Part shown: positions 57,499 to 60,614 of the stretch, piece by piece
How the letters are laid out: the number at the start of each line of letters is the position of its first letter
Numbering within the stretch: the first letter of the stretch is position 1
Assembly: GCA_024741835.1 (NCBI GenBank)
Contig: JAENRP010000053.1
Coordinates: forward strand, 70,701-134,700
Origin: Diplocarpon mali
Taxonomy: Eukaryota; Ascomycota; Leotiomycetes; Helotiales; Drepanopezizaceae
Length of the DNA: 64,000 nt
Reading direction: 5' to 3'
Notes under the pieces: generated by a model
Told to the model about the DNA's origin: nothing
Database searches by the model: none
The model's input: the letters and a program-made list of their open reading frames with translations, nothing else
Made by a program: the position numbers and the translations under genes

Positions 57499-59509
57499 CT
57501 TGCCGTCTTCCTCCTTGGGGGGATGCGGCCGGTTCGAGTCGGGGGGACCTCTCGTCGCTTTCGTGTCGCCCGCGGTCTTGGGCTGAGAGTCAACGACGAC
57601 GAGGGCGGAAGTTGCGACGAGCGAACAATGTGCAGAGGATGACGAGTCGGGAGAAGGAGCCACTGTTGGCCTCGGCGATGCGCAGGACTCCCAGCATTTC
57701 GCAACGCGGACGTGCCAGATTCGATGGCGGTGATCTAGATGAGATCGTTCTCCGCGGTTCACCTGGATAATGTTGACGATTCACCTTGGCGCGCCCCCCC
57801 TCGCTTAACTCACCGACCCCTTGAAATTTTCGGAAGGCGAAGTTGCAGAGGACGCGCCAGTGCGATCTCAGAAACTTCGCGATCTCGCACAAAGTACTTC
57901 AGGCTTGACCTCTGCACCAGCATAGCTATCCGTCGACGGGCAGTGCACAGGAAACCTAATCCACAGCCAGAGCAGAAGCCACACCCTTGTTTCCCTCCCG
58001 AAGCTCGTCGAGAAGGTGAGAGGAGCAGGATGGTACCACTCCGGCAGCCTTATCAGATGGCAGCGGGCGGACCCGTTGAGAGCGAGCAGGATGATGGTGC
58101 CTTTCCAGAAACATTGGGACCTGGTTCGCTACGGGAATACCGACCTAAGAAGCCCCAATATATATATATATATTTTCCTTATTAGTGTCTGACAATTTTC
58201 TTTCTGCCCTCGAGCTTCTCCCGGCCCTCGATTGTACGAAATAGTCATGAAAGGCAATAAGCAGGTTCGCAGGCTGAGCCATCGGTGTCCTGAAGTTCAG
58301 TGTATTGGAGACGGGTCAAGGCAGTCGAGAGGCTAAAGCAGAGTACAAGCTCACGCCCCCTCCTTACGAGGCAGAGACGTTTCAGCATCGTACATACACA
58401 TGCCCGATATCCATCTACAAACCAAGACCGCCGCCCTCTCACGCGTAGCATATTCACTCGGTGTATCGGAATCTCTGAAGGCTGACATCCGAAGGTCGCC
58501 TGTCACGATGGAGTAGATCAGACACGCTTCCCTTGACCATATCACAGAGCTGCCCCGAGAAATTCGTTCGGATGCTGCACGCGGGTCGTTGATCCCGGCC
58601 GAGAGTCCACCGATTATCTGCATCGAGCCCCGTACGGTTTGTCGTAGTCGGCAACCTCCCCAGAAACCCCAGCTAGCCTCTGACCATGGCCCTCCCACGC
58701 CGACCTCTTCCGTTCTCCCGCCAAGCTGGGAACTCTTTCGGCAAGAGAAAACTGGCCGTCTAGCATCCTGTGGGGAAGAGAAGGCTCGTCAGCGGCGGAT
58801 TCTCGATCCGGGCCGTCGTCTCATGTCTCATCGCCCAGCTCTCCGTTGGAAGCGTCGCGGTGCCGGTATGCCCGTCGCCTCTTGGTCAGGGGAGTCTCGG
58901 GCCCGCAACCTGATCGTATCTTCTTCGAAGCGCACATTCTGTATCTTCGTGACACGAAAATGCCCAGACACCGCGTTTGCCGACCCGAGATCAGAGCCCT
59001 TCTTCTGCGCCTCCGGAGGCATGACAGCTCATTACTCCCCCTCGCGAGGGGGAGGGTTCTCTTCAAGCTTGCCGCGAGGCGGTCATACTCTCGACCCCCT
59101 TGAGCTGGTGCTGTGAATTGGGATTATGGCTGCCCCACGAGGAGACACGATGCAAAAGGGCTTGGCACCCGAGAAAGGCTCGGCGTGAAAGTCGTGGAAA
59201 ACCCCGTCGGAGGCCCCTCCTGACACGGCTCCCTGAATGCCGTAATCGAGCAGCAAGAAGCCGATGTTTATGCCGTGGAGGCCGCGCCGGGGAGCTCTTG
59301 TTGCATTCTACTCACAACCTCAGGCAAGCAAGGCATCGTTCGTCTGTTCTCGCTTGGCTTCCACAACCTCGGCAAGAGCTTTTGGAAAAGGAATGCCGAA
59401 AGAACGCAGGCTGAGCAGGGAGTAAGTACTTTGGCTTCTACTCCAACTTCAACAGCGGTGTTTGCATTCGAGTGGGGATCAAAAAGCAATTGGAGGTGAT
59501 GGTGTAAAC
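57499..59509. other. Intergenic region
   Basis: About 2 kb between the hypothetical gene and the tRNA gene. A (TA)n stretch lies at 58158-58173. The 175-codon frame at 58589-59116 (+) shows no domain. Nothing else is supported. Confidence 0.45.
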
Positions 59510-59514
59510 AAAAA
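59510..59514 (-). terminator. Pol III T5 terminator of tRNA-Gly
   Basis: Five T on the minus strand start 7 nt after the discriminator base of the tRNA. This is the standard RNA polymerase III stop signal and supports transcription of the tRNA gene in this direction. Confidence 0.75.
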
Positions 59515-59520
59515 GACATG

Positions 59521-59667
59521 TGCGTTCGCCGGGAATCGAACCCGGGGCCCATCGAGGCTGCGGCGGGTGTGACCCTGATGGCAACGATGGATTTTACCAC
59601 TCTGGATCCGCGTTAGTATCAGTCAGATCAGGTGCTGTTCGTGGGATAACTTACAAACCACAAACGC
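59521..59667 (-). tRNA. tRNA-Gly(GCC) with two introns, one spliceosomal-like in the D-arm
   Basis: Three segments (59667-59655, 59601-59579, 59555-59521) join to a 71-nt tRNA. The acceptor stem GCGTTTG pairs with CGAACGC (six Watson-Crick pairs and one GU), discriminator A. The D-arm is GTTT-AGTGGTA-AAAT with T8, A14, G18G19 and A21. The anticodon stem CATCG/CGATG closes a loop with anticodon GCC. The T-arm CCGGG-TTCGATT-CCCGG is perfect and contains the B box. Intron B (59578-59556, 23 nt) lies 3' of base 37, the canonical site for the tRNA splicing endonuclease. Intron A (59654-59602, 53 nt) interrupts the D-arm after base 13. It starts GTAAGT, has TACTAAC at 59618-59612 and ends CAG. Without removing intron A there is no acceptor-stem partner, so a one-intron model fails. 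Confidence 0.85.
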
Positions 59668-59696
59668 TTCTTGTCATTGGTGAATGTAACCTATTC

Positions 59697-59703
59697 TTAT
59701 ATA
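59697..59703 (-). promoter_or_regulatory. TATA element upstream of tRNA-Gly
   Basis: TATATAA on the minus strand begins 36 nt before the first base of the mature tRNA. Upstream TATA elements at about -30 position TFIIIB at many fungal tRNA genes and at U6 genes. Here it could compensate for the split internal A box. Confidence 0.55.
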
Positions 59704-60614
59704 TGTCCAGTTTCAAACTTCAAGGGGCAGTAGCCAACTAGCACCTACCAGTTTGCCGATGTCAGCCGGTAGCCACACTGCACGGGTCACCAGGGCTTTT
59801 TTTTTTTTCGAGATCGGGCGGCTGCCGCATCGTCACTCGAGATGCTGCCCGTCAGTAACAGCAATTGAATCCTCACTACAGATTCCAACAAGCCCATCAC
59901 GCCAACACCGCGTATTTCCTCCTCAGCACACTCCCGCTCCGTCAGCCTGGCTGCATCACGAAGCGAGGCCGCCAGGGCAAGCCCGTCCGTGGGCATGGTA
60001 AGCCGAGGCGGTACAGTCCGTTGTGAGGATCACGAGATGCCTGGACCGTGCTCGAGGAGAACGAGATTGGATACTGGCGGGCCGGCCTGGGTCTGGATCG
60101 CGCCAGGTCGACATCTCTGCAACGGCAGAACGAGATGTAAGATCGGGCGTCGTCCGGAATCCGAATCGCCCGCCTCGACCACGGAGAGTCGGCGGAGGAG
60201 GGCACCACGATCAGAACAGTCATGTCTTTCATCCACGCCTGCGTACACCGTACGTGTAGAAACCCTCCCCCTCTTGGCGAGCTGGGCCGCGACGGTCAAA
60301 CTCCGACGTCAAGGCGGACCGGAGCATCTTGATCCTGAGAAGTGTCCGAGGCACGACCGCTGCTGGCCGTACGAGAAGGAATTTCATCAAAGAGGAGCGC
60401 CCTGATCAACATTGCAGAACCAAGCTGTCGACCGGGCAAAACTACGCCGAGAGTAATTGATGGGCATGAGCCAACTGCAGTTCGTGTACTCAATTATCCG
60501 AATTCAGTAACCTTCGCTCGCGATCTCGTCAGAACCCGCACCCAGGATGTAATGCAGCAGAATGAACACCCCGCTAGAAACGCCAACCACTCAACACCAC
60601 CCCCTCCGCAATCA
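59704..60614. other. Intergenic region
   Basis: About 900 bp between the tRNA gene and the membrane protein gene. An 11-12 T run lies near 59800. No credible gene was seen. Confidence 0.45.

Follow-up and report, generated by a model that had tools for sequence, protein, structure and literature searches.

Introns with spliceosomal signals in the D-arm of a tRNA-Gly(GCC) gene and in other tRNA genes of Diplocarpon mali

Can a nuclear transfer RNA (tRNA) gene depend on the spliceosome for the maturation of its product? The question is raised by a tRNA-Gly(GCC) gene of the ascomycete Diplocarpon mali, which lies on the minus strand (59667-59521) of a 64,000-nucleotide (nt) stretch of contig JAENRP010000053.1, called the window here in its full length. 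Under the accepted division of labour, eukaryotic nuclear tRNA introns belong to the tRNA endonuclease and messenger RNA (mRNA) introns to the spliceosome. A first-pass annotation had described this gene as interrupted in its D-arm by an insert resembling an mRNA intron, and had proposed that its RNA polymerase III (Pol III) precursor needs both machineries. With a probability of roughly 90%, the sequence evidence presented below indicates that the gene is nuclear and functional and that the insert in its D-arm is a spliceosomal intron of the U2 type, belonging to a set scattered over the tRNA genes of this genome.

Read along the minus strand, the gene starts with a 13-nt exon (GCGTTTGTGGTTT; 59655-59667) that holds the acceptor 5' strand and bases 8-13, its acceptor bases pairing 7/7 with 59522-59528. 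A 53-nt insert after nt 13 follows (59602-59654); it begins with GTAAGT, carries TACTAAC and ends in CCAG, with ten bases between TACTAAC and the insert end and the branch A standing 11 nt ahead of the final base. Exon 2 (bases 14-37; 59579-59601) opens with AGTGGTAAAATCC and contains the D-loop and the anticodon GCC. The canonical tRNA intron between bases 37 and 38 comes next (37/38 intron; 23 nt; 59556-59578; i(37,23) in ARAGORN), and exon 3 (59521-59555) runs from base 38 through the T-arm with box B and the acceptor 3' strand to the discriminator A73. On the same strand, a T5 run 6 nt downstream of the gene (59510-59514) is the likely Pol III terminator, and TATATAAG (59696-59703), about 30 nt upstream, is a candidate TATA element. 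Box A of tRNA genes covers positions 8-19 according to passages of PMC3978253; in the window gene it is interrupted between bases 13 and 14, and an intact internal box A is not present. When the 53-nt insert is excised, the acceptor stem pairs 7/7 (one G-U), the T-stem pairs 5/5, and ARAGORN recognises tRNA-Gly(gcc) with a 23-nt intron. The coordinates, the position of the D-arm insert, its start, branch sequence and end, the restored acceptor stem and the second intron are all as first described.

Without excision, ARAGORN finds no tRNA in this gene, and none was found in the raw 64-kb window either by ARAGORN or by Rfam at gathering scores; a permissive Rfam search of 59400-59800 returned three sub-threshold matches, all to other families. 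We excised every GT..AG segment of 44-66 nt on both strands of the window, and 4 of 10,823 excisions gave a tRNA spanning the junction, all of them alternatives at the tRNA-Gly(GCC) locus. Control excisions with four other dinucleotide pairs gave a tRNA in 2 of 49,417 cases, both again at this locus. Chance GT..AG ends were rejected on the basis of this window-wide scan together with the signals of the 22 genes described below. Since ARAGORN and Rfam both miss the window gene, standard tRNA annotation can overlook genes of this kind.

In the genome assembly (49.37 Mb, 676 contigs), BLAST with the spliced 71-mer identified five Gly(GCC) loci, and no uninterrupted copy was found by this 71-nt query. 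The copies on C407 and C71 carry a GT..AG insert after nt 13, the same site as in the window gene (C53), and the copy on C60 carries one after nt 8. The four spliced products are identical over all 71 letters. No significant mutual similarity was observed among their D-arm introns, their 5' flanks or their 3' flanks. A canonical 37/38 intron is present in the other three copies as well, the range being 23-27 nt. The fifth locus (C2; L052, G000:C2:258400-259300) has no recognisable 5' exon and is changed in its D-arm and box B; it is probably a decayed copy and was kept out of the count. Intact Gly(GCC) genes beside a decaying window copy, which the first-pass annotation had named as grounds for giving up its proposal, were sought and not found: all four well-formed copies are interrupted, and it is the fifth that looks decayed.

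The interruption is not confined to one isoacceptor. We identified 22 tRNA genes, representing 13 isoacceptors, that carry a GT..AG insert outside 37/38: four Gly(GCC), one Gly(CCC), one Ala(AGC), two Lys(TTT), one Glu(TTC), two His(GTG), one Leu(CAG), one Leu(TAG), two Gln(CTG), two Met(CAT), three Tyr(GTA), one Ser(TGA) and one Ser(GCT). Insertion occurs at about ten positions: after nt 5, 8, 9, 12, 13, 15 and about 20, within the variable loop, at 52/53 of the T-stem and at 55/56 of the T-loop, the T-loop site breaking up box B. A further 52 nuclear-type tRNA genes showed no such insert; the proportion of 22/74 is not a genome-wide rate, since the inventory is incomplete. RF00005 scored 63 of 2443 candidates, the patterns used for box B match some of its variants only, and with twelve yeast tRNAs as queries the only loci recovered were three of tRNA-Phe. 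Gly C2 and a Lys-like locus (C13; L071, G000:C13:15845-15933) stand outside the count of 22, no clear 5' exon having been found for either. The Lys-like locus has no matching 5' acceptor strand, and may equally be a decayed copy or contain an undetected intron. L033, an odd tRNA with anticodon TTT and poor stems, perhaps mitochondrial, was placed in neither set. BLAST with spliced Gly(CCC), His, Leu(TAG), Lys(TTT), elongator Met and Tyr sequences found no uninterrupted copy, a result that excludes near-identical copies only, and none was seen for Ser(TGA) and Ser(GCT), for which no dedicated search was made.

Some members of the set deserve separate description. In tRNA-Ser(GCT) C210 (L067, G000:C210:1718-2418) the intron follows nt 5 in the acceptor stem and leaves a first tRNA exon of 5 nt. 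The elongator tRNA-Met gene C27 (L122, G000:C27:112040-112320) has its intron in the T-loop, dividing box B, and that of Met C234 lies in the variable loop. The 3' ends of the T-stem introns of two Tyr genes (L120 on C52 and L121 on C55) are alike (GACGGCTGCTNACAGCTGT), suggesting that a gene which was already interrupted has been duplicated. Introner-like copying of one sequence was considered and rejected for the set: only the Tyr introns are clearly alike (z up to 8.1), and other pairs reach z of at most 5.0 on very short matches (40 shuffles).

What kind of intron these inserts are is indicated by their ends and their internal signals. All 22 begin with GT and end in AG at exact exon boundaries, 1-4 placements being allowed per gene. 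The 5' sites are GTAAGT (9), GTAAGA, GTGAGT, GTTAGT, GTACGT and GTAGGT (2 each), and GTATGT, GTACTT and GTCAGT (1 each); the 3' sites are CAG (11), TAG (10) and AAG (1). A CTRAY motif lies 9-14 nt before the insert end in 20 of the 22, and the remaining two have CTCAC at 11 nt (Tyr C52) and TTGAC at 10 nt (Met C27). With the allowed placements counted, the chance of 22/22 GT..AG inserts has a log10 of about -49, a figure softened because the candidates were recognised by eye partly through GT..AG. Insert lengths run from 48 to 80 nt (median 50.5). In a sample of mRNA-type introns of this genome the median is 54 nt, the 5-95% range 46-71 nt and the branch spacing quartiles 9-13 nt, the lengths in this sample being bounded by the search pattern itself. 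The sample was drawn from 100 listed of 494 pattern matches, of which 87 were kept after removal of a repeat family and a nested match, and some overlaps remain. At 53 nt, the insert of the window gene has the ordinary intron length that had been claimed for it. The catalytic core of a group I intron takes a few hundred nt; the inserts are 48-80 nt long and the window gave no Rfam match at gathering score, so that self-splicing group I introns do not fit.

Removal of the inserts was observed to restore tRNAs. After excision ARAGORN recognised 21 of the 22 genes, 20 of them with the expected identity; Gln C123 was called Pyl(cta), because its 37/38 intron was set wrongly. Among the 20 genes tested unspliced, 13 gave nothing, five gave a wrong identity and two the right one, namely Gly C60 with a wrong 5' part and Met C234 with a longer intron. 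Ser(TGA) C40 and Ser(GCT) C210 were called Ser before excision with the 5' end misplaced. Acceptor pairing after excision is at least 6/7 in 22/22 genes, and the T-stem pairs 5/5 in 18/22. Among the uninterrupted genes, 50 of the 52 could be scored (two initiator Met genes could not) and these pair at least 6/7 in the acceptor. The genes that had scored 5/7 were L033, Ser C40 and Ser C210, and removal of a GT..AG intron brings both Ser genes to 7/7. This acceptor-stem check is less exposed than the GT..AG odds to the way in which the genes were recognised. Paralogues also differ by acceptor changes made on both sides of the intron: at 7-66 in Met (A-T/T-A), at 6-67 in Gln (T-A/C-G) and at 7-66 in Lys (G-C/T-A), the two Lys genes being rather divergent and differing elsewhere too. 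In Leu(CAG), pair 5-68 is T-A in the interrupted gene versus A-T in its intronless paralogue. Both halves of the interrupted Glu(TTC) and Ala(AGC) genes are exactly as in their intronless paralogues.

These data bear on two other ways of explaining the inserts. They might be ectopic tRNA introns whose bulge-helix-bulge (BHB) motifs are cleaved by the tRNA splicing endonuclease, the GT..AG ends being incidental; red algae, nucleomorphs and archaea do have introns in the D-, T- and variable arms, in some cases in addition to one at 37/38 (excerpts of PMC4090602 and PMC3978253). With slips and G-U allowed, a strict BHB central helix of 4/4 is formed by 3/22 inserts (Ala and the two His), and the mean of 2.2 pairs exceeds the 1.5 expected for one random placement. 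However, 19/22 miss the strict 4/4, the window gene reaching 2/4 when scored for this strict central helix form, and BHB cleavage predicts no shared GT, no CTRAY at fixed spacing and no AG, which are present in 22/22, 20/22 and 22/22 inserts. We therefore regard such an origin as highly improbable. The interrupted copies could otherwise be decayed pseudogenes or insertions into dispensable copies. A review by Yoshihisa describes eukaryotic D/T-arm insertions as mostly found in one of many synonymous copies and supposed to be pseudogenes (excerpt of PMC4090602), and both the missing 5' exon and altered D-arm and box B of Gly C2 and an A-C mismatch in Tyr C52 are of the kind that decay would produce. 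Against this, the four Gly(GCC) copies are interrupted yet identical when spliced, with no intact copy found; the six BLAST queries named above gave no near-identical uninterrupted copy; and acceptor pairs have been altered on both sides of introns in four families, which is contrary to relaxed constraint. We give the pseudogene explanation hardly any credence.

A further question is which polymerase makes the precursors. TTTT lies within 40 nt downstream of 18/22 interrupted genes versus 44/52 scored uninterrupted genes (a comparison set that still held Ser C210) and 16% of background positions. The four genes without it are Met C27, with 11 nt viewable, Ala C75 and both His genes; in the last three, TTTT stands at 53-70 nt. 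Inside the introns, TTTT occurs in 0/22 tRNA versus 18/87 mRNA-type introns (P=0.021), and TTT in 4/22 versus 47/87 (P=0.0035). An upstream TATA-like motif was seen at 8/20 interrupted genes, 32/52 others and 11% of background. The U6 small nuclear RNA (snRNA) gene of this genome (L075, G000:C67:136807-136959) contains a 51-nt mRNA-type intron (GTGAGT..GCTAATGA..CCAG) between AGCATGGC and CCCTGCAC. It could be argued that the introns are spliceosomal but that Pol II makes the precursors, with or without the tRNA being embedded in a longer RNA: the usual substrates of spliceosomes come from Pol II, box A is divided, and a TATA-like motif does stand before 8/20 of these genes. The close downstream T-runs and the depletion of T-runs inside the introns nevertheless fit Pol III, the shortest first tRNA exon measures 5 nt, and U6, transcribed by Pol III elsewhere (PMC10484740), has the same kind of intron here. 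Pol II precursors are in our judgement unlikely.

Roughly 10-26 nt downstream of three Ala(AGC) genes (L031, L098 and L069; C5 and two places on C75) and two His genes (L081 and L118; C9 and C203), before the T-run, we observed another hairpin that resembles a T-arm and has a sequence like box B (such as CTCGGTTCGATTCCGAG). These hairpins are possible extragenic B boxes.

Several points weigh against U2-type introns in working Pol III-transcribed tRNA genes. The BLAST search for intact copies was not exhaustive, as it overlooked Lys C38, which is divergent, and a Gln(CTG) gene on C72 that has no interruption. The 5' site of Ala C75 is weak (GTACTT), Tyr C52 is unrecognised by ARAGORN even when excised, and T-stem mismatches occur in Tyr C52, in Lys C38 and in both Gln copies. 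The mRNA-type sample consists of pattern matches and not of annotated introns, a reversed control pattern matching 125 times versus 494. The depletion of TTTT is modest (shuffling of 20 introns, P=0.075 for zero TTTT), and the TATA-like motif is less frequent before interrupted genes than before the others. Box A is cut in many of the genes and box B in Met C27, and transcription from an internal promoter should suffer. Finally, searches for relatives in the viral_contigs and genome_contigs sets gave no match, and the conservation described was seen within a single genome.

Set beside these are the gene anatomy, the splice signals, the restored cloverleaf, the conservation of the spliced product among copies and the Pol III-like terminators, all of which can be read directly. 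It is from these that we infer splicing itself, its order and the polymerase. It is most likely that the spliceosomal-type introns are taken out of the Pol III pre-tRNAs by the major spliceosome, ahead of any action of the tRNA endonuclease. The window gene would be transcribed by Pol III with the aid of the upstream TATA element, a help that we invoke because box A is split, and transcription would stop at the downstream T-run; as upstream TATA elements are common at tRNA genes here, they may explain the tolerance of a divided box A more generally. The spliceosome would then recognise GUAAGU, UACUAAC and CAG in the precursor and join base 13 to base 14. The insert blocks formation of the D-arm, and the yeast endonuclease subunit Sen54 is reported to contact the D-arm (passage of PMC4090602); spliceosomal removal should therefore precede 37/38 cleavage. 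Only afterwards would the D-arm fold and the endonuclease take out the 23-nt intron, with end trimming and CCA addition last. The two-machinery precursor first proposed for the window gene is supported, as a prediction, by 22 interrupted genes, about ten positions and shared U2-type signals, and further by the identical Gly products, the two-sided stem changes, the Pol III hallmarks and the U6 intron.

Comparable cases are known from other small or structured RNAs. The mRNA-type intron of U6 snRNA in fission yeast and other fungi is likewise of the U2 type and sits in a small, structured transcript of Pol III, and the U6 intron found here is a known kind of exception (passages of PMC10484740 and PMC5832005); a 2017 paper states that, among small structured RNAs, frequent interruption by an intron is known for U3 and U6 alone (part of PMC5832005). 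Unlike U6, the hosts described here are tRNAs, with many genes and about ten positions involved, often with a second, endonuclease-type intron, and with internal promoter boxes cut. The spliceosomal introns in the ribosomal DNA of lichen fungi are similarly ectopic and lie in a structured RNA that is not made by Pol II, and one that was transplanted into yeast is spliced out of Pol I ribosomal RNA there (passages of PMC8527467); the RNA is a Pol I product in that case and would be a Pol III tRNA here. Cyanidioschyzon merolae, nucleomorphs and archaea also have introns in the D-, T- and variable arms, sometimes together with a 37/38 intron (excerpts of PMC4090602 and PMC3978253). Red algal ectopic introns are tied to BHB motifs and the endonuclease in parts of PMC3978253, and nucleomorphs and red algae are set apart in an excerpt of PMC4090602 from the other eukaryotic D/T-arm insertions, mostly supposed pseudogenes. 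In contrast to these introns, the inserts of D. mali have the GT, CTRAY and AG signals of mRNA introns and lengths of 48-80 nt. They differ equally from the canonical 37/38 introns in the four Gly(GCC) genes, in position, in signals and presumably in machinery. The signal recognition particle RNA of Cryptococcus was dropped as a precedent, as the portion of PMC4605306 concerned reports no evidence of introns. Judged by titles and the beginnings of abstracts, no report of spliceosomal introns in tRNA genes was found among the matches listed from the open-licence literature, and the exact phrase 'spliceosomal introns in tRNA' is absent from that literature.

For nine isoacceptors, every well-formed nuclear gene that we found is interrupted, and box A or box B is cut in many genes. 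We think it probable that the spliceosome is an obligatory machine of tRNA maturation in this fungus, acting routinely, before folding, on uncapped Pol III transcripts with very short first exons. If this is true, a further class of tRNA intron would stand beside the self-splicing and the endonuclease-cut ones. A spliceosomal-type intron in every found copy of several essential tRNAs would break the accepted division between the two machineries, and translation would be tied directly to the activity of the spliceosome, and to a U6 RNA that itself needs splicing. Several questions would thereby become testable: by what route non-coding genes gain introns, how a substrate with neither a cap nor the polymerase C-terminal domain is found by the spliceosome, and how Pol III can operate when box A is not intact.
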